Positions 2,477 through 26,331 of a stretch of 41,264 bases of DNA are shown here, one piece after another. The position numbers and the translations under genes are program-made. A model generated the notes under the pieces. It was not told the origin of the DNA. It worked only from the letters and a program-made list of their open reading frames with translations, and made no database searches. How positions within the stretch are numbered: the stretch's first letter is position 1; every line of letters starts with the position of its first letter. The DNA comes from Kiritimatiellia bacterium (GTDB lineage: Bacteria; Verrucomicrobiota; Kiritimatiellia; UBA8416; JADHWI01), in assembly GCA_016783565.1 (NCBI GenBank), contig JADHWI010000019.1:1-41264 (forward strand), written 5' to 3'.

Positions 2477-5400
2477 AGAATTGTTTGAAGAAAACCATCC
2501 CGATAAAGACGAACAACTCGTCGTGGTTAAAACTTTCTGGCAGAAGGTGGTTGGATTTTTATTTCGCAGGAAGGAGCGTACCTCAGCATTGTCTGACGAT
2601 GTCAAACATCCCTGGATGCTGTTTTGGGTGATGCTTGTGCCGCAACTTTTGTTGTTGTTCCTTAACACGCGTGCCTGGCAGTTGATCCGTGGTGAGGTAA
2701 ATCCCGAACAGTTTTTATGGGCGAGCCAGATCTTTTATTACGAAGTGGTTCTCTTGCTCAGCGCCGGGGTGGCCTGGATCACGTTGCACCGATTGAAACG
2801 ATTCGTCGGTCTGATATTCTGTGCCTTTGTTTTGTTTGCCGAAATTGGGTACTTGTGGTTCTTTACGGTGCATCTTGAGCGTATCATTCCCAATACCGTG
2901 ACAGAGTGGATGTTGCCCGGCTCACAGCTGTTCTATTACCAGTATGCGCTGATGATGCCTTCGCTTTTTTATGCGGCATTGCGACTGGCCTGTTTTCCAG
3001 TAAGGCTGAATCGGGCTGTGGACGTGGGGCTCTCTGTGCTTGCCCTGGTGCTGGTGCCCACGGCCTGGTTTGCGGGCATGCACATGGCCCACTGGCTTTT
3101 CCGAGTTCGTGACCCGTCGGTTATCGTGATGATCATTTTGTCGGTGGGATCCACCGTGATTTTGCTGATGGCGTTTTTGCGCATTCTTGCATACAGCTAC
3201 ATGGGGTTGCGACGCCTGAAATGGGGGCGGGTTGCGATGCTGATCGTCGCGGGATTAATAGCACCCGTCGGGGGATTGATTCTTAACCATCATGTTTCGT
3301 TTCCCTATGACTTCCAATCGAAAACGGTCTACGTGCTGACAGGTTTGAATGCACTTTTTTTGCTGCTGCCGTTTTCTGAGAAAAGCAGTAGAGGTGTGGC
3401 AGCCTGGTGTCTGCGAAGCGCATTGTACCCGTTCACGTTGTACTTCTTTGTTGTGTTTCTTCCGTTTCTACCGCTCGCTCTTCCAGCATTGTTTGCCTTC
3501 GGTGCCGGGTTTCTGATTCTTGCTCCGACACTTTTATTTATTGTGCACACACGCACTCTTTTTGACGAAGGCAAGGTTCTGGCTGCGGGACTTGGCACGA
3601 CCCGGGTCGTTGTGTTGTTTTCAGTTTGTGTTGCCATTATTCCTCTTGGTTATACCGGTCGCGCGATCGTAGATAAGTTGGCTTTGAGCAGTGCTCTGGA
3701 TGTGGCGTATCGACCGGACTACGAGACGGGTAATATTCCCGTGTATCGGAGTGCGCTCAAACGGACGCTTCTACGGTTGCACGCGATCAAGCAGGGGAAC
3801 TACCTGCCGTTTATTACCGATTGGTATGATCACATTGTGCTCGATGGCATGATTCTGCCCGATCGCAAGGCTCAGCACATTGAGACCATGTTCTTTGGTG
3901 GGCCTTTGCAGTATCGTCGGGTTGACTCATCGTTTCGTGATTTGTTCGGGTCAGCGTCTCGTCGCCGGCGTAATCGCAACCGCAACCGTGTTCGGCTTCC
4001 TTCGCGCAATGTGCAGCTTGCGGGGTGGGAAACGAAGATCAGTGAATCCAACAACACAACCACTGCAACGGTTGTGCTTTCCCTTGAAAATAAAGGGGGA
4101 ACCGGATCTGAATACGTGGCGGACTTGACGGTGCCGGACGGTGTTGTGATTTCGGGCTATTGGCTGCATATAGGCGAGGAGCGTGTTCCTGGACGCATTT
4201 TTGAAAAGAAGGCGGCCATGTGGGTCTATCATATGATTCGCGATCGTGTGCGTCGAGATCCCGGCATGCTGGTCTACACGGGAAATAATCAGATACGCCT
4301 GAATGTGTTTCCGTTTGCAGCCAAAGAGTGGCGCACCACGGAGATTGCTTTCAGTTTTCCGACAGGACTGTCTCCGCACATTCGTATCGGGTCGGAGGAG
4401 GTGGCCCTGGCGGAAGAACAGCCGAAAAGCGACAACGCGTTTCTATGTAAGGGATCGATTCGCGATACGCTGGTGATTCCGTCTTCCAGGGCTGCAGCGC
4501 TGCCTGCGGTGCAGCGTCAATCGTATGTTCATTTTGTTGTGGATTTCTCTGAGGCAGCGGAGACGGGATGGGAAAGCATCACGCAGACGCTTGTGCGTGT
4601 GAGCGATGCACTTCCCACCACGACCATGTGTCGCGTGACGTTGGCCAACTATGAATTTGCGCATGCTACTCCGGATCTTGTGTCGTTGAAGGAGGTGCCC
4701 GAGGTCATTTCGCGCAACCGTGACAGGATTCCGTTTCGAGGTGCATTGTGTCCCGAGCGTGCGATGAAGAGTGCGCTCTTGACCGTACGGGACATGCCAA
4801 CATTTGGACCGGATAATGTACCGATGGCTCCGGTCTTTGTTGTCTTGCGTGCTGAGAAGACCCGCCCGTTGCGTGAGGGCGGGTTTGGTCCGTTTGCGGA
4901 CATTGTACCCGATGTATCGGCATATTATGAAGCACGTTCGGATGGACGGTTTGACGTGCACGCATTTGAAGGTGGTTCCGTGAATGTGGTGCCGTCATTG
5001 CCGTCATCGTCACCCGTGATTCTATTGCGCGCAGATACTGCGTATGCATTGTGTCGACCGAGGGAATCAAGTGTGGTGCGGTTGCCTGCAGACATGGCTG
5101 TTGAGTATTATGATGCAGAGACAAAGAATTACATCTTGCTTGAGAAGATGACGGTGCTTTCAGAAGACGCGTTACTCTCACAGGGCTTGGCGCTCTTGGA
5201 GCAATGGGAAAAGACCGTGTTTCAGCCAGCCCTGGAAGATACGTATTTATCACAGCTTGTACAGTGGAGTCGTGAGGTTGGCATCTTGATTCCCGTGACT
5301 TCCTATATCGTGGTAGAAAACTCAGCACAGTGGGAGATGCTGAAACGTGCGGAAAAGAAATCGCTTAAAGCTGACAAAGGATTGGAGTTTGATGAATTTG

Positions 5401-5522
5401 TCGAATCGCCGGCTCCGTCCATGCTGCTTCTGCTTCCGATCGTGTTTTTGCTGCCCGTAATACGGCGACGTTCGCGTAGAAAAACAGAAGGGCATGTGGA
5501 AGTTTTTACAAATGATGTGTAG
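2469..5522 (+). CDS. Polytopic VIT-domain protein with exosortase-type C-terminal sorting signal (MSEP-CTERM-like)
   Basis: The 1017-residue protein has a charged N-terminus, about ten membrane segments up to roughly residue 420, and then a large extracytoplasmic part. A VIT (vault/inter-alpha-trypsin) domain spans about 515-645, recognisable from GRIFEKKAAMWVYHMI and the following NQIRLNVFPF. A degenerate von Willebrand-like region follows. The C-terminus has the tripartite sorting-signal form: short motif ESPAPS (979-984), hydrophobic stretch 985-998, and the basic cluster RRRSRRK (999-1005). This layout matches proteins known to be paired one-to-one with small exosortases (MSEP-CTERM or XrtN-VIT types). 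It is translationally coupled to the exosortase gene and is its obvious candidate substrate. The role is unknown. The stop lies only 6 bp before an IS110 hairpin arm. Confidence 0.82.
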   Translation: MSEELFEENHPDKDEQLVVVKTFWQKVVGFLFRRKERTSALSDDVKHPWMLFWVMLVPQLLLLFLNTRAWQLIRGEVNPEQFLWASQIFYYEVVLLLSAGVAWITLHRLKRFVGLIFCAFVLFAEIGYLWFFTVHLERIIPNTVTEWMLPGSQLFYYQYALMMPSLFYAALRLACFPVRLNRAVDVGLSVLALVLVPTAWFAGMHMAHWLFRVRDPSVIVMIILSVGSTVILLMAFLRILAYSYMGLRRLKWGRVAMLIVAGLIAPVGGLILNHHVSFPYDFQSKTVYVLTGLNALFLLLPFSEKSSRGVAAWCLRSALYPFTLYFFVVFLPFLPLALPALFAFGAGFLILAPTLLFIVHTRTLFDEGKVLAAGLGTTRVVVLFSVCVAIIPLGYTGRAIVDKLALSSALDVAYRPDYETGNIPVYRSALKRTLLRLHAIKQGNYLPFITDWYDHIVLDGMILPDRKAQHIETMFFGGPLQYRRVDSSFRDLFGSASRRRRNRNRNRVRLPSRNVQLAGWETKISESNNTTTATVVLSLENKGGTGSEYVADLTVPDGVVISGYWLHIGEERVPGRIFEKKAAMWVYHMIRDRVRRDPGMLVYTGNNQIRLNVFPFAAKEWRTTEIAFSFPTGLSPHIRIGSEEVALAEEQPKSDNAFLCKGSIRDTLVIPSSRAAALPAVQRQSYVHFVVDFSEAAETGWESITQTLVRVSDALPTTTMCRVTLANYEFAHATPDLVSLKEVPEVISRNRDRIPFRGALCPERAMKSALLTVRDMPTFGPDNVPMAPVFVVLRAEKTRPLREGGFGPFADIVPDVSAYYEARSDGRFDVHAFEGGSVNVVPSLPSSSPVILLRADTAYALCRPRESSVVRLPADMAVEYYDAETKNYILLEKMTVLSEDALLSQGLALLEQWEKTVFQPALEDTYLSQLVQWSREVGILIPVTSYIVVENSAQWEMLKRAEKKSLKADKGLEFDEFVESPAPSMLLLLPIVFLLPVIRRRSRRKTEGHVEVFTNDV

Positions 5523-5528
5523 ATACTA

Positions 5529-5605
5529 TGCAGGGACACACTCAGCTCCTATACTCAGGAAGCAACATTAAACCCCTGAGAAAGGAGCAAGAGCATGTCC
5601 CTGCA
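5529..5605 (+). promoter_or_regulatory. Three-part hairpin sequestering the transposase ribosome site and start codon
   Basis: Three nested perfect stems read TGCAGGGACA (5529-5538) with TGTCCCTGCA (5596-5605), GCTCCT (5545-5550) with AGGAGC (5583-5588), and CTCAGG (5554-5559) with CCTGAG (5575-5580). That gives 22 bp around a 15-base loop. The middle stem pairs the Shine-Dalgarno bases (AAGGAG, 5582-5587), and the outer stem includes two bases of the ATG at 5595. RNA read in from the upstream operon should therefore translate transposase poorly. The same inverted arms may also mark the left end of the element. Confidence 0.7.
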
Positions 5606-6698
5606 AGAGAGGAAACTACTAATGGCGATGGAACTGAGCAACACAAATTGGAAGCTTTGCTTTGGTGATGGAAGTACACACCGCGAGCGAACGATCCCGG
5701 CTCGGGCGGTTGAGACGCTTCTGAAAGAAGTGCAACGAGCAAAGGAGAAGTTCGCTTTGCCGGCGGAAGCGCCTGTGGTGAGTTGCTATGAAGCGGGTCG
5801 TGATGGGTTCTGGGTCGACCGAATGCTCACGGAGCATGGGATCACCAACTACATAATGGATCCGTCGAGTATTGAAGTGCCTCGCCAGGCACGTCAGCGC
5901 AAGACCGACCGCCTTGATTCGCGAAAGCTGCTGAAGCTCCTCGTGCGTTATGAGCTCTGGGGGGAGCGCGACTCATTCGCTAAGGTGCAGGTGCCTAATG
6001 AAGAGCAGGAAGCACAGTTAAGAACGCACCGGGAGCGGGAGCGGTTGACCAAGGAGCGAACCGCACATCGGGCGCGGATCAAATCACTGTGCGTGTTGCA
6101 CGGAGTGGATGCGAGCAAGGCTTTGCGTGTTGAGGTGAGTGCGTTGCGTGACTGGAAGGCTCGTGAATTGCCAACTCCATGGCTCAACGAGCTGAGGCGA
6201 GAGCGAAATCGATTGAAGCTTGTTGATGAGCAACTGGCGGCTGTAGAGGAGACACAGAAAGAGGCTCTAGCCAGCCCGCAGAGCAAAGCGGTTGGGCAAG
6301 CGCGCAAACTGCAGCAGCTCAAAAGCATTGGAGTGCAGAGTTCGTGGGTGTTGTGCCATGAGTGCTTCGGGTGGCGCGAGTTTGCCAACCGAAAGCGCCT
6401 CGGCTCCTTCTCTGGGTTGACGGGAACGCCTTTCGATAGTGGTGATACCTTGCGTGAGCAAGGCATCAGCAAGGCTGGCAACCGAAGGGTAAGAACGACG
6501 ATGATTGAGCTGGCCTGGCTCTGGCTTCGCTGGCAACCCGACAGTGCTCTGACGCATTGGTACCTCGAGCGCTACGCTGGGACTAAGCGATCACGACGAA
6601 AGGGCATCGTCGCACTGGCAAGGAAACTGCTTATTGCCCTCTGGAAGTATCTGGAACAGGACATCGTCCCTGAGGGAGCGATCCTCAAGGCGGCGTAA
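5595..6698 (+). CDS. IS110-family transposase (DEDD/RuvC-like recombinase)
   Basis: The 367-residue product has the usual two halves. The N-terminal RuvC-like domain has the strand AMELSNTNWKL (with Glu where many relatives have Asp), then SCYEAGRDGF and KTDRLDSRKL, which carry the other acidic residues. A coiled region rich in Arg and Glu follows (about 130-180). The C-terminal Transposase_20 domain reads SFSGLTGTPFDSG and KAGNRRVRTTMIELAWLW, with the serine nucleophile region typical of the family. Length and motifs are complete, so the gene is probably functional. Start ATG 5595 has AAGGAG seven bases upstream, inside the hairpin described above. Known relatives move as double-stranded circles, and several are guided by an RNA encoded in a non-coding end. 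Confidence 0.93.
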   Translation: MSLQERKLLMAMELSNTNWKLCFGDGSTHRERTIPARAVETLLKEVQRAKEKFALPAEAPVVSCYEAGRDGFWVDRMLTEHGITNYIMDPSSIEVPRQARQRKTDRLDSRKLLKLLVRYELWGERDSFAKVQVPNEEQEAQLRTHRERERLTKERTAHRARIKSLCVLHGVDASKALRVEVSALRDWKARELPTPWLNELRRERNRLKLVDEQLAAVEETQKEALASPQSKAVGQARKLQQLKSIGVQSSWVLCHECFGWREFANRKRLGSFSGLTGTPFDSGDTLREQGISKAGNRRVRTTMIELAWLWLRWQPDSALTHWYLERYAGTKRSRRKGIVALARKLLIALWKYLEQDIVPEGAILKAA

Positions 6699-22362: not shown

Positions 22363-23030
22363 GTTCACCTTATGCATGGTTTAACAGTGCTCACGAGGAA
22401 CGGATGGCGCGTTTTTGCAATGCCGGTCTTTACCTGGTGACCAGCGAATCGCTCTCCGAGGGGCGTTCCACTTTAGACATTGTGGATGCAGCACTGGCCG
22501 CAGGTGTCCGGCTGATTCAGCTTCGCGAAAAAGGGCTTTCGATTCGTGAGTTGACGTCACTTGCTCGTGAAGTTCGTGCGCGAACAAAGGCGGCGGACGC
22601 ACTGTTGATTATCAACGATCGGTTGGATGTCGCGTTGGCCGTAGAAGCGGATGGCGTACATCTGGGGCAGGATGATCTGCCTATTGCCGATGCTCGTCGC
22701 CTTGCGCCGGAACTAATCATTGGGGCCTCGTCGCACAACGAAGCCGAAGCTGAAGCCGCCGAGGCGGCCGGCGCCAGTACCGTCAATATAGGTCCCCTGT
22801 TTCCCACGCAAACAAAGAACTGGACAGGCGAGTACCTTGGTGTGGAAGGGTTGCGACGGATTGCTCCCGTTCTGCACGTACCTTTTACCGTGATGGGCGG
22901 CATTAAGGCTGAGCATATTCCCGAGCTGCGGGCCGCTGGTGCCTGCACTATTGCCCTTGTCACTGCGGTGACTGCCGCCCCCGATCCCGCACAAGCCGCC
23001 CGCGAGCTTCTGACAGCAGTGCGCGGGTAA
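22359..23030 (+). CDS. thiE: Thiamine-phosphate synthase
   Basis: ThiE joins the pyrimidine and thiazole phosphate halves into thiamine phosphate. The 223-residue TIM-barrel protein shows the expected order: GLYLVTS, LIQLREKGLS (substrate Gln and Lys), LIINDRLDVALAVEADGVHLGQDDLP (metal-binding Asp residues), IIGASSHN, GPLFPTQTK and VMGGIKAEHIPELRAAGA. The first 20 residues or so are extra relative to many ThiE proteins. The ATG overlaps the preceding aminotransferase stop (ATGA). It is the last gene of the lipB-lipA-aminotransferase-thiE cluster; the next genes run the other way. No TPP riboswitch is apparent here, which is expected if the promoter is far upstream. Confidence 0.94.
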   Translation: MSSPYAWFNSAHEERMARFCNAGLYLVTSESLSEGRSTLDIVDAALAAGVRLIQLREKGLSIRELTSLAREVRARTKAADALLIINDRLDVALAVEADGVHLGQDDLPIADARRLAPELIIGASSHNEAEAEAAEAAGASTVNIGPLFPTQTKNWTGEYLGVEGLRRIAPVLHVPFTVMGGIKAEHIPELRAAGACTIALVTAVTAAPDPAQAARELLTAVRG

Positions 23031-23040
23031 AGGGAAATAA

Positions 23041-23067
23041 GACCTATAGGTCTTATAGGACTTATGT
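23041..23067. repeat. 9-bp unit array A (end of the four-helix gene)
   Basis: Three contiguous 9-base units read GACCTATAG, GTCTTATAG and GACTTATGT. The first bases also form the palindrome GACCTATAGGTC. The array contains the stop codon (23062-23064) of the minus-strand four-helix gene. Confidence 0.8.
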
Positions 23068-23916
23068 TTCTTCCGACTGTCTTCTTCTGCGTGCTGAGCG
23101 CACTTTGTAGAGGCGCTCGGAGAAACCGCCATCGTCGACAAACGCGGCTTCGAGTGTAGTAAGCTGCTTGTCCAGCAGGTAGTTGGCCTGATGGGTCAGG
23201 CAGAGCAGCGTGTTCGCGGCAACTTCGGGGGAGTGTTCCTCAACATGGGACTTATAGGTCTCATAGGACCTATTCTCTGCATAGGCCAACTTGCGAACGG
23301 CTTGAGTTTGCGGGTTGTTTTTGTCCCAGATAGTGAGGTTCTTGTGGCGCAGGAAGTCTTTGTAGTCCTCGAGGAGTTCTTGCAGGCTGGCCCGCGCGAC
23401 GCCCACGAGTTTGAGTTCCATCTTCTTGGAGGTCCCGGAGGCGGCGCACCCTTCGACGATGTTCTGTTTTCCGCTGCGTGCGGCCTGGACCATCTGATCG
23501 TGCGTGCGCGAGCGCAGGCTGATGAAGCGGTTGCAGAACGCGACGGTGCCCTGGTAGAGCATTTCGGTGGACTTGTATGACTCCAGTTCCTGGTAGTTGC
23601 CGTGAACCACAATGAGCTTCTCGTCTGGCGATAGCCTGGTGTGAGCTTGCATTTCATGCTCTATGGCGGAAAGCGCCCTGGTTGCTGAAGTTTGAATGCG
23701 TGTATCGGCGTCCTGTGCGAGAGCACATACGGCATTCTTGACGGTTGCATCGATCCGCATTTTTCCGGCCAGTTTCCCGATTAATTGGGCGGTCAAGCCG
23801 CGCACTTCCGGGGCCTCGTGCGCGAGCAGTTTAAGCAGCTCGCGCTCAGGGCCGGAGTGGTGCGGGCGCGGGCCCGGCTTCGGGGTCGGGTTCTGGGAAT
23901 AGGACTTATGAGTCAT
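23062..23916 (-). CDS. Four-helix-bundle suffix-domain protein (S23/IVP-like) with helical N-terminal extension
   Basis: Function unknown. The 284-residue protein has a proline-rich start, a helical stretch with HEAT-like character (about 25-92; APEVRGLTAQLIGKLAG), and then a four-helix bundle (about 105-210). That bundle resembles proteins encoded in 23S rRNA intervening sequences (SLRSRTHDQMVQAARSGKQNIVEG). The C-terminal suffix domain is at about 228-284 (ANTLLCLTHQANYLLDKQL and a basic tail). Relatives with bundle plus suffix are known from PVC and Bacteroidetes genomes, also without a function. Arrays of a 9-bp unit lie over its start codon, at the bundle/suffix junction (residues 214-224) and over its stop. 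It follows the regulator gene by 17 bp and is probably cotranscribed. Confidence 0.8.
   Translation of the reverse strand: MTHKSYSQNPTPKPGPRPHHSGPERELLKLLAHEAPEVRGLTAQLIGKLAGKMRIDATVKNAVCALAQDADTRIQTSATRALSAIEHEMQAHTRLSPDEKLIVVHGNYQELESYKSTEMLYQGTVAFCNRFISLRSRTHDQMVQAARSGKQNIVEGCAASGTSKKMELKLVGVARASLQELLEDYKDFLRHKNLTIWDKNNPQTQAVRKLAYAENRSYETYKSHVEEHSPEVAANTLLCLTHQANYLLDKQLTTLEAAFVDDGGFSERLYKVRSARRRRQSEET
23249..23275. repeat. 9-bp unit array B (inside the four-helix gene)
   Basis: Units GACTTATAG, GTCTCATAG and GACCTATTC lie in frame inside the coding sequence and encode part of ENRSYETYKSH. On the minus strand the first 14 bases (AGAATAGGTCCTAT) equal those of array C. Confidence 0.8.
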
Positions 23917-23929
23917 ATAGGACCTATTC
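23903..23929. repeat. 9-bp unit array C (start of the four-helix gene)
   Basis: Units GACTTATGA, GTCATATAG and GACCTATTC cover the start codon (23914-23916) and most of the 17-bp gap to the regulator stop. Confidence 0.8.
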
Positions 23930-23933
23930 TTTC

Positions 23934-25031
23934 CTATGGCATTCTTAACTTATGGGTTGCAAGTGTTTCGCGGATGGCGAGGACGCGTTCGTTGATGTGT
24001 TTGGTGCGGGAGGCGATCAGGAGCAGATCGCCGATGCGGCCGTTGGGGGTGAGGATGCGTCGCGAGGAGTCGGGCTCTTCGTAGTGGGTTTTTTCGTAGT
24101 GAGCATAAATGTGTGCTTTGAGTTCGGGAACTTGTTTTTTGTGAATCAGTCGCAGTTCTTCCAAACGGTATAAGAAGGATTCGGCCGAGACGCCGAAGCG
24201 GTGTTTGATGCGTAACAGTAGTTCGTATGACCAATCGGTGGGGTTGATGCCGAGTTGTTGTACGGTTGAAACTACGGTGTCTTCGGGCATCAGGAAGCGA
24301 GATGCGAAAACTTTTGTTAGACGTCGCTCCTCCAGAGGGGGTACGGCGATGTTAGGCTGGCTGGGGGAGGCCATGCGTCGGGTCAGGAAATAGATTCGTC
24401 CGAGCTCTACCAGTAGGCGAAAGATTTGTTTTTCGGGATTCATGTCTTCGCGCACAAAGAAGAACGCATTGCGGTTGGCTGGATCATAATGCACCAGGCT
24501 TTCTTCAGGTGCGATCCTGGTGAAAAGAATCCGAAACCCCTTGAGCTCGAACAGTTCAATATAGTCAAAGACGATGCTGTTGCGGATGCCCAACATTTCG
24601 CGCACCTGTTCAGCCAGGCGTGTGGCGCCTGCTTCGTCGGCGTCAAACGGAAGGGCAAATGAAATGAGTGGTGCTTTGCTGAGCCCGCAGGCGTCTTCAA
24701 GGCCCAGGTAGCACTCAATCAGGTCAACAGCTCGGCTCTGCACAGATGCGGAGATTTTGCGTCCGTCCTCGGCTACAAGAAAAGGACTATCCAGCGAGGC
24801 CTCATAGTAGGCCCGCAGGTTGATCGCGTCTTGCACAAAGAAGGCTGATTCGGGGACCTTGAAGGTGCGAGCCAAGCCGACCAGCGTGGATGCGGAGGGG
24901 GCGTGCAGGCCGCGTTCTGTGCGCCCCAGCGCGACTGGCTGCAGTCCGATGTGCCCCGCAAGCTGGTTGATTGTCAGTCCGCGCCATTTCCTGAGTTGAC
25001 GGATGTTGTTGCCAATAAATGCCAGATCCAT
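23934..25031 (-). CDS. XRE-family regulator with degenerate ImmA/IrrE-like domain
   Basis: The product is 365 residues from ATG 25031, which has AAAAGGA about nine bases upstream. Residues 5-60 form a Cro/C1-type helix-turn-helix (IRQLRKWRGLTINQLAGHIGLQPVALGRTERG). The rest follows the layout of XRE-ImmA/IrrE (DUF955) proteins, in which a HEXXH metalloprotease cleaves a partner repressor. Here the site reads VELGR at 208-212 within FRLLVELGRIYFL, so both zinc-binding His residues are missing and Glu is kept. A longer region (about 240-365) resembles the C-terminal winged part of such proteins. It is thus more likely a sensor or regulator than an active peptidase. It is the first gene of a two-gene unit with the four-helix protein. 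A start further upstream (25373) is unlikely, since it would pass through the promoter and the palindrome. Confidence 0.78.
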   Translation of the reverse strand: MDLAFIGNNIRQLRKWRGLTINQLAGHIGLQPVALGRTERGLHAPSASTLVGLARTFKVPESAFFVQDAINLRAYYEASLDSPFLVAEDGRKISASVQSRAVDLIECYLGLEDACGLSKAPLISFALPFDADEAGATRLAEQVREMLGIRNSIVFDYIELFELKGFRILFTRIAPEESLVHYDPANRNAFFFVREDMNPEKQIFRLLVELGRIYFLTRRMASPSQPNIAVPPLEERRLTKVFASRFLMPEDTVVSTVQQLGINPTDWSYELLLRIKHRFGVSAESFLYRLEELRLIHKKQVPELKAHIYAHYEKTHYEEPDSSRRILTPNGRIGDLLLIASRTKHINERVLAIRETLATHKLRMP

Positions 25032-25080
25032 GATGATTGATCCTTTTTGTTGGTTTGATAAAAAATCAAATCTATAATAG

Positions 25081-25107
25081 GTTTTATAGGTCGTATATGA
25101 CTTATTT
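25081..25107. repeat. 9-bp unit array D (upstream of the regulator)
   Basis: Units GTTTTATAG, GTCGTATAT and GACTTATTT, preceded by AATAG, have the same phase as arrays A-C but are more diverged. The array overlaps the predicted promoter. Confidence 0.65.
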
Positions 25108-25112
25108 GTCAA
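25083..25112 (-). promoter_or_regulatory. Sigma-70-type promoter of the regulator/four-helix cassette
   Basis: On the minus strand, consensus TTGACA (25112-25107) is followed after 18 bases by TATAAA (25088-25083). Transcription would start about 45-50 bases before the ATG at 25031. Array D fills the spacer and -10 region, so anything binding the array would block the promoter. Confidence 0.6.
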
Positions 25113-25123
25113 GGATAAGATTA

Positions 25124-25151
25124 AAAAAACAAATGTATACATTTGTTTTTT
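25124..25151. promoter_or_regulatory. 28-bp perfect palindrome, operator or bidirectional terminator
   Basis: This is a 28-base perfect dyad whose centre is ATGTATACAT, flanked by ACAAA/TTTGT and then A6/T6 runs. It lies 12 bp upstream of the -35 box of the cassette. As RNA it would give an AT-rich stem whose 3' side is a T-run on either strand; as DNA it could bind a dimeric regulator. Confidence 0.6.
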
Positions 25152-25698
25152 ACGAGAATTAAGCTCAAAATGGTTTGCCAGGGCGTGCGAAGATGTGCCA
25201 AGGGGAGGTAAGCGCGGTAGTGTTGAGGAGCCTGTTGTGGCTGTGTTTGCGGATTGGTGGTCAGGTCTTTCAGATATCTTCCGTTTCCTGATAAAAAGGT
25301 GGCCAGACTTACAACGTAAGGTAAGGAGTGAACCTTTGGCTCGCTGCAAGCCTGGCCTGGGTGCGTCAATCAATCACTTTAGGAAGGAGTCTCTGCCTGA
25401 CCTCACTTTCGTGTGTGTTGTTGTATCAATCTAATTGTACCTGTTCTAGTAGCAATAAGTATGCCAGCACTGATGTCAAAAAGCGCTCAATTGACGTAAG
25501 ATGTTGAATGATAAGGTGTTTCTTTATTGAGTCCAAAAATGCTTCAATTCTTTGTGTGACAGGAATGTCGCAAAGTGACTGAAGTGAGACACATCGATGA
25601 GACATTTATGTCTCGTTATGATGAGATCTCATGGTGATTGAACGCTTGACGTATGTGTAGTGTCGCGCGCAGATTGTGTGCACACGAAGGGATTTTGC
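25152..25698. other. Gene-free intergenic region upstream of the Crp/Fnr gene
   Basis: No convincing coding sequence is seen in about 550 bp; local composition is AT-richer than the neighbours. It holds two short palindromes near its right end (25599-25632). Confidence 0.55.
25599..25632. promoter_or_regulatory. Two dyads upstream of the Crp/Fnr gene
   Basis: GAGACAT-TT-ATGTCTC (25599-25614) and ATGAGATCTCAT (25621-25632) lie 67-100 bp before the start codon. They are plausible operator sites, perhaps for autoregulation. They do not match the textbook CRP or FNR site. Confidence 0.4.
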
Positions 25699-26331
25699 AT
25701 GAAACTCAACAAGGCGGCGTTGTTGTCGCAATCGTCATTCTTCCAAGGGCTTCCTGAGGCCGACTGTATGGCCCTGGCCGAGCGAAGTCAGCATCGGCAA
25801 TTTCGTAAGCGGGAGATTCTCTTTCATGAAGACACGCCGGGCACTGCAATGTTCCTGCTGATATTTGGTACGGTTCAGCTCACAAAGATGGGTGATGACG
25901 GTCGACAGACTGTGATTCGCACGCTCAAAGCAGGGGAGGTATTTGCTGAGGTCATTCTACAGGCTGACAGTCGTTATCCTGTGACTGCTGAGGCTTTGAC
26001 GGATGCGGATGTTTTACAGCTTGATCGGCAGCACATCTTCGGGCTGTTGGGAGATCCCTCTTTTCGGGATGACTTTATCTCCTTTCTCATGCGCAAGCAG
26101 CGTTACCTGGCAGAGAGGGTACGCTACCTGACGGTATATGACCTTGAGGATCGTTTCTTTCGCTTTATGCGTGAGCAGTATGGCGAGCGCGATCAATTTG
26201 AGGTGACATTATCGAAGAAGGATATTGCTTCGGCAATTGGGGCCACACCTGAAACGTTCAGTCGTTTGGTGTTACGGCTGAAACAACAGGGGCGTATTGA
26301 TTGGCAGGGGCGTATGCTCAGCATCAAATAA
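25699..26331 (+). CDS. Crp/Fnr-family transcriptional regulator
   Basis: Cytoplasmic DNA-binding regulator of 210 residues. The N-terminal cyclic-nucleotide-binding-type beta-roll (about 12-125) shows FFQGLPEADCMALAERS, LFHEDTPGTAMFLLIFGTVQLT and the GEVFAEVIL turn. That turn lacks the Arg-Ser pair of true cAMP binders (RS becomes VIL region), so cAMP is unlikely to be the ligand. No FNR-like Cys cluster is present, arguing against an oxygen-sensing iron-sulfur cluster. The dimer helix precedes a winged helix-turn-helix (about 155-210; LSKKDIASAIGATPETFSRLVLRLKQQGRI). ATG 25699 is preferred over the upstream frame start because it gives the usual N-terminus and has AGGG upstream. Targets are unknown. 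Confidence 0.88.
   Translation: MKLNKAALLSQSSFFQGLPEADCMALAERSQHRQFRKREILFHEDTPGTAMFLLIFGTVQLTKMGDDGRQTVIRTLKAGEVFAEVILQADSRYPVTAEALTDADVLQLDRQHIFGLLGDPSFRDDFISFLMRKQRYLAERVRYLTVYDLEDRFFRFMREQYGERDQFEVTLSKKDIASAIGATPETFSRLVLRLKQQGRIDWQGRMLSIK

Follow-up and report, generated by a model that had tools for sequence, protein, structure and literature searches.

The locus at positions 23,041 to 25,107 of contig JADHWI010000019.1 (assembly GCA_016783565.1, Kiritimatiellia bacterium; the whole contig stretch of 41,264 nucleotides is called the window here) raises the question of why two adjacent genes should carry four short arrays of one 9-bp unit, and to which of the genes these arrays belong. 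One gene encodes an XRE-type regulator and the other a protein consisting of a four-helix bundle with a suffix domain. The preliminary description of this locus proposed a mobile module, with the arrays as a recognition sequence of the regulator or of a recombination process. The data showed that the arrays are a property of the four-helix suffix gene, and not of the XRE regulator.

The plus-strand starts of the arrays at 23041, 23249, 23903 and 25081 had been given exactly in the preliminary description, and each array contains three 9-bp units of approximately GWCYTATRR. Array A (23037..23065, both strands) covers the stop codon (23062-23064) of the four-helix gene and continues beyond it, array C (23899..23927, both strands) lies over its start codon (23914-23916), where the protein begins with MTHKSYS, and array D (25077..25105, both strands), which is the most degenerate of the four with 3 mismatches, precedes the XRE start codon by about 45 bp. 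In correction of the layout described earlier, array B (23245..23273, minus strand) lies inside the four-helix gene, in frame between bundle helices 3 and 4. It encodes the peptide R-S-Y-E-T-Y-K-S-H, which forms a short helix (residues 218-226) in the AlphaFold model. An N-terminal peptide like that encoded at array C is present in 19/34 of the nearest relatives (P0122-P0155) and in 0/85 of the following ones (P0156-P0240).

Single 9-mers were not significantly enriched (16 matches with at most one mismatch versus 11.3 expected), while three units in phase were. When the 25-base three-unit pattern was searched with up to three mismatches in the 2.42-Mb genome of the same organism (85% complete), it matched only the four window arrays and one other place, C21:8218, and a reversed control pattern gave one match per strand. 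With at most one mismatch, there were 3 forward and 2 reverse matches, corresponding to arrays A, B, and C, and none for the control. At the same threshold, 17 of the 145 genomes of the phylum contained matches, whereas the control matched in G049 alone (2 matches). The confinement of the phased units to these few places agrees with the earlier statement that they are not random. The additional place (L006, G000:C21:8218-8242) holds a lone GTCCTATGC-spelled array, and the only TIGR04258 match of this genome is the window gene.

The same period was found at related genes. The suffix domain profile TIGR04258 detected genes in 70 of the 145 genomes of the phylum, and in 30 such loci the number of repeats at a lag of 9 was 21, while it was 0 or 1 at lags 5-8 and 10-17. 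The 9-bp period is constant and the spelling is lineage-specific, in the form of GWCN followed by TAT, GAC, GAT, or CAT and then NN. In relatives, one in-frame copy is located in a loop of the gene and the others at the gene ends. To cover many phyla, 80 named loci (L091-L170) were used, which are the best 80 of at least 562 confirmed ones and lean to the clade of the query. All 64 triplets were scanned in these loci, on both strands, in the pattern GWCN-XYZ-NN-GWCN-XYZ. For TAT there were 113 pairs in the gene, 74 outside it within 1 kb, and 8 farther away, coming from 49 loci; the corresponding numbers were 38, 32, and 0 for GAC, 16, 17, and 2 for CAT, and 19, 6, and 0 for GAT. The triplets TGT, TTT, AGT, AAT, CAA, and CTT were low, and the remaining ones were near zero. 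The TAT arrays inside the gene had three units in 42/49 cases. The loop and end copies shared the same spelling in 28/33 loci, where the ends were defined as a stretch of at most 400 bp before the gene, or as one starting where the suffix domain stops and running to +400 bp, which may include the coding tail; the mismatches were TAT/CTT and TAT/CAT in two loci each and TAT/AAT in one. This count excludes the window's own locus (L035) and L011, which duplicates L151. None of the 741 neighboring open reading frames (ORFs) in the 80 loci resembled the XRE protein, and cognate arrays were present at these XRE-free loci. This observation, together with the fact that the spelling follows the four-helix protein, led to rejection of the XRE gene as the reader of the arrays. 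Beyond 1 kb from the gene, the far flanks of the 80 loci also showed a repeat signal at lags of 7, 14, and 21 (27 segments at lag 7).

How closely the spelling follows the protein was analyzed on a protein tree of 98 out of 110 loci, from which the loop columns were removed; four loci were dropped by name and eight because landmarks were absent or the length was unusual. The spelling needed 8 changes on this tree, compared to a mean of 27.3 after shuffling (0/500 as low), and the spelling of the end copies alone needed 7 changes compared to 19.7 (0/500), on a tree that rests on few columns and has many open forks. The TAT spelling spans 15 phyla. That one spelling and one protein clade are common to many phyla supports horizontal spread of the four-helix gene, as judged from sequence comparison, and for this gene the idea of a horizontally moved module appears to be borne out.

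The loop copy is also conserved at its silent positions. In 41 genes with an SYxTY loop, which were picked by the loop peptide and not by codon (L035 was excluded), loop tyrosines were encoded by TAT in 116/117 cases versus 139/260 elsewhere in the same genes. Loop arginines were AGG in 50/55 versus 73/672, loop serines were TCN in 50/51 versus 269/449, and loop lysines were AAG in 33/35 versus 258/470. This pattern argues that the DNA is kept, and not the peptide alone.

The four-helix gene of the window (23062..23916, minus strand, 284 aa) encodes N-terminal HEAT-like helices, an S23/IVP-type bundle, and a suffix helix. The suffix domain (TIGR04258; 23083..23229, minus strand; E 9.8e-21) scored 72 bits against a cut-off of 40, and TIGR02436 scored 27 bits (cut-off 24), while PF05635 (22.6 bits, cut-off 33.8) and HEAT_2 (25.5 bits, cut-off 27.7) remained under their cut-offs. 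No other kinds of profile match than HEAT-like, IVP, and suffix were obtained. The AlphaFold model had a pLDDT (predicted local distance difference test) value of 88.9. The four-helix bundle fold of 2gsc/2rld, that is the S23/IVP/Avd fold, was found by Foldseek when the query was a relative's model lacking the HEAT part; with the full model of the window protein there was no usable match. This fold is widespread, with at least 8000 related clusters scored for the window protein, and its members outside retroelements are not known to have a function. In L040, L245, and L264, the frame seems to continue after the suffix domain into a zinc-ribbon-like stretch, which resembles topoisomerase zinc fingers, and in L264 further 9-bp repeats follow this stretch.

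The link between spelling and protein makes the encoded four-helix protein the most economical candidate for the reader of the arrays, which would then be copies of a 9-bp address sequence of its gene. The strand-symmetric degeneracy of the unit (RGWCY, GTCSGAC) and the absence of clear covariation for a hairpin suggest that what the protein would read is duplex DNA. With moderate confidence, we predict that the four-helix protein binds its own array as duplex DNA, and in this way marks or holds the junction place while the gene spreads. By analogy to the pairs of repetitive extragenic palindromic (REP) sequences and REP-associated tyrosine transposases (RAYT), reading of the arrays could help the gene to insert or to persist. 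A wider proposal, which we regard as tentative and rather unlikely, is that of an address code, in which each Avd-fold clade would read one duplex spelling (TAT, GAC, GAT, or CAT), keep an in-frame copy of it, and write more copies at junctions, often in defense operons. The in-gene copy may then serve as a template for the end arrays, akin to retrohoming without an own reverse transcriptase.

Loci with and without the gene, the comparison of which had been suggested in the preliminary description, were available in the genus g32. At site 1, at least one phased GTCC pair follows the gene in 7/7 occupied genomes and in 0/2 empty ones (L193 and L194), in which both flanks align, separated by 404 and 237 bp of different sequence. 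Site 2 is occupied in five genomes, with weak repeats in one of them, and three empties have no arrays; both flanks align in L200 alone, and only the left one in L201 and L202. These empties say little, because the repeats of the occupied sites lie largely in the coding tail of the gene. The occupied and empty sites of g32 do not tell gain from loss. Further suffix genes of this genus (L174, L175) have one phased pair or none, and a second type of suffix gene (L171, L177, L179, L180) ends in RGD-type 9-bp coding repeats, the length of which varies between species. At cas4 junctions, an array signal strictly outside the gene was detected in 2/6 loci with the suffix gene directly upstream versus 0/24 without it; these 30 loci were taken out of 69 cas4 rows, and 5 of the 24 have an unidentified gene upstream of cas4. 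The junction in L261, which is array-like by eye, was not counted. The thiE loci of relatives were rejected as empty sites, since, although 0/19 carried arrays, they were too diverged to give edges. Hence, the link between the gene and the end arrays is drawn mainly from the concentration of arrays in the 80 loci and from their spelling, and less from the empty sites.

Several observations weigh against reading of the arrays by the four-helix protein. Site 1 of g32 stands for a single location in a single genus and likely reflects one event, and the cas4 test is thin, with 4/6 of the gene-bearing junctions lacking an outside array signal in the automatic test. By a strict test, 54/98 rows of the tree have no end array. 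The host phylum required 39 changes on the tree compared to 49.7 after shuffling (0/500; 67 rows, 18 phyla), which indicates that the gene crosses phyla often, yet its hosts still cluster. In the four-helix protein, no motif typical of a nuclease, a transposase, or DNA binding was identified. When counted by genome, TAT arrays were only weakly associated with the gene, which was present in 10/17 genomes with such arrays versus 60/128 others (p 0.44), and G088, G123, G100, and G109 contain TAT arrays with no TIGR04258 or PF05635 match. In the four species of g38, the gene is 84-93% identical and occurs in at least three different surroundings, and no end arrays were detected at the three readable loci, which suggests that end arrays are not needed in every case. 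GAC arrays were moderately associated with the gene (13/16 versus 57/129 genomes, p 0.007).

The surroundings of the g38 genes also bear on how the gene moves. Between G016 and G058 or G092, the reading frame alone is common, with homology running from the start codon to the stop; G097, for which the downstream side was compared, has no downstream sequence in common, and G058 and G092 have common upstream blocks, with 1.6 kb more in G058. The gene may thus move as a bare reading frame in g38. Copies at different places of the same genome are 73-82% alike over the gene, which means that they are old, while two copies in G058 (L285:2875-3704 and 4676-5504), lying 1.8 kb apart and 96% alike over 831 bp, represent a recent local duplication. 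The duplicated region adjoins a tandem repeat at 2276-2842 of L285. G118 contains two copies, 92% alike, of a 132-bp element with inverted ends (L185:3004-3135, L187:5522-5652); one of them is beside a suffix gene, and the element is possibly a separate small inverted-repeat element. An origin from a phage, plasmid, or virus was rejected, with 0 matches in 50,697 phage records and 1 in 72,556 plasmid records. A scan of IMG/VR with two short peptide patterns, which reaches close relatives only, gave no confirmed relative.

The Avd-like fold raises the alternative that the arrays act in RNA, with the protein binding their copies in its own mRNA and in neighboring cistrons to tune or process the transcript, much as the intervening sequences in rRNA that go with its relatives are processed. 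The location of arrays over start and stop codons would fit such a role, and so would the inversion of the leftmost array relative to the rightmost one in 8/8 two-orientation loci with non-palindromic spellings. Two of the four window arrays also fold better than shuffled sequences (z -2.9 and -3.0, compared to -0.9 and -1.0 for the other two). However, 97 TAT arrays showed neither clear depletion of C-A mismatches nor a complementary preference of the neighboring W positions, so that an RNA hairpin is not supported by covariation, and the strand-symmetric degeneracy would be unusual in an RNA site. Positions 22500-25700 contained no match to an Rfam family, and a known RNA element was therefore rejected as the identity of the arrays. 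We consider action in RNA unlikely.

It is improbable that the arrays represent a dispersed repeat that gathers at gene ends independently of the four-helix gene, which would merely be a frequent neighbor. Scattered arrays do occur in genomes without the gene, so that the expectation that arrays would sit at such genes, which agrees with their concentration in the 80 loci, did not hold in every genome; many of the 19 arrays read in G088, G123, and G103 closely follow stop codons. Such a repeat would leave unexplained why there is one spelling per protein clade across phyla, and why the silent sites of the loop copy are conserved. In G017 and G088, which have no TIGR04258 gene, there are dozens to hundreds of matches to the TAT pattern, with 9 control matches per strand at 3 mismatches in G017, and 7/9 arrays read in G088 lie outside ORFs of at least 100 aa.

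Quite improbable, in our view, is the explanation that selection in the loop acts on the peptide x-S/T-Y-x-S/T-Y, and that the end arrays arose from this coding stretch by slippage or duplication. The family does conserve the peptide, three codons make up the 9-bp period, and some end copies lie within the coding tail. However, the silent positions are conserved too, 129 unit pairs are located outside the frame within 1 kb and follow the loop spelling, and other clades use x-S-D or x-S-H instead. Finally, it is very improbable that the arrays are operators by which the XRE/M78 regulator controls a two-gene cassette. The place of array D, upstream of the XRE gene, is the usual one for an operator, but four-helix genes without an XRE/M78 neighbor have such arrays as well, the spelling tracks the four-helix protein, and the XRE family is broad (464 relatives; the few names shown among the 120 listed are mostly from Desulfobacterota-type genomes).

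The XRE gene itself (23934..25031, minus strand, 365 aa) encodes HTH_3 (37.7 bits) and ImmA/IrrE-like Peptidase_M78 (37 bits) domains. Its product matches RmrA of PADLOC, a protein of the RosmerTA system, with 74 bits. This gene is likely a resident operon partner, as are the cas and hsd genes elsewhere. The window locus sits between thiE and a Crp-type gene. Relatives of reference cas genes were found in 21 of the 80 loci, hsd in 13, and neither in 46, and the direct same-strand neighbor of the four-helix gene was cas in 17 and hsd in 11, all of these being raw counts. Typical gene orders were cas7-[gene]-cas4 and hsdM-[gene]-hsdS. Further cas genes of other subtypes were also seen nearby, and the four-helix gene is not a constant partner of one cas subtype. 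The other neighbors included ERCC4, OLD/UvrD-type, and methylase genes, as well as housekeeping and transporter genes. In 62/80 loci, the 500 bp preceding the gene contain the end of an ORF on the same strand. In L102, a type I-C operon beside the four-helix gene has an extra gene (5086-6135), presumably RhuM-like by its look, between its cas4 and cas1 genes, and in L096 a Bro-N domain gene (5116-5952) is directly upstream of the suffix gene.

Among known systems, S23/IVP proteins (PF05635, TIGR02436) share the four-helix fold, but the window gene is not inside a 23S rRNA gene, and it differs by the additional suffix helix, the HEAT-like N-terminus, and the 9-bp arrays. The Avd-like fold also recalls Avd of diversity-generating retroelements; however, no reverse transcriptase was among the neighbor families listed (25 of 87, 54 neighbors), and no template and variable repeat pair is part of the locus as described here. 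In REP/RAYT systems small palindromic repeats lie beside a companion gene and are also dispersed. The arrays are similar in being small palindromic repeats beside a companion gene, dispersed in some genomes, and many loci are flanked in this way, although those of g38 are not, and the window's own genome has one array place beyond the locus. In contrast to REP/RAYT, a four-helix bundle takes the place of the Y1 (HUH) transposase, the gene has one of the copies in its own reading frame, and the repeat is a phased 9-bp array.

The two proteins had been described as of unknown function in all lineages, but their domains are catalogued (TIGR04258, TIGR02436, HTH_3, and Peptidase_M78), the XRE protein resembles RmrA, and relatives of the four-helix protein near cas genes have been reported, with 18 23S_rRNA_IVP genes associated with cas loci, between cas genes and often near cas4 or cas6 (Zhang et al. 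2013, PMC3936711). The passages on these genes describe the association only, and mention no repeats, spelling code, or other operons. According to a preprint, VIPR guide RNAs consist of 9-16 repeats of a 5-nt unit and act with a RAMP-fold protein (PMC13142463); the arrays described here are likewise tandem units with fixed and variable bases, but differ in having a 9-bp unit, about 3-5 units, and a four-helix protein. A search of the literature, mostly without subscription journals, found no paper on the arrays or the spelling code. The pairing of array and protein lacks the Y1 enzyme that defines REP/RAYT and the location that defines rRNA intervening sequences, and its mechanism is a proposal.

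A DNA spelling that is matched to the protein clade and is switchable offers a direct test of the function of the S23/IVP/Avd fold. If the proposed reading of the arrays by the four-helix protein is true, it would explain why an odd gene turns up repeatedly in CRISPR type I-C and type I restriction operons, as well as the SYxTYx or SDxSDx peptides and 9-bp arrays present in many metagenome genes.
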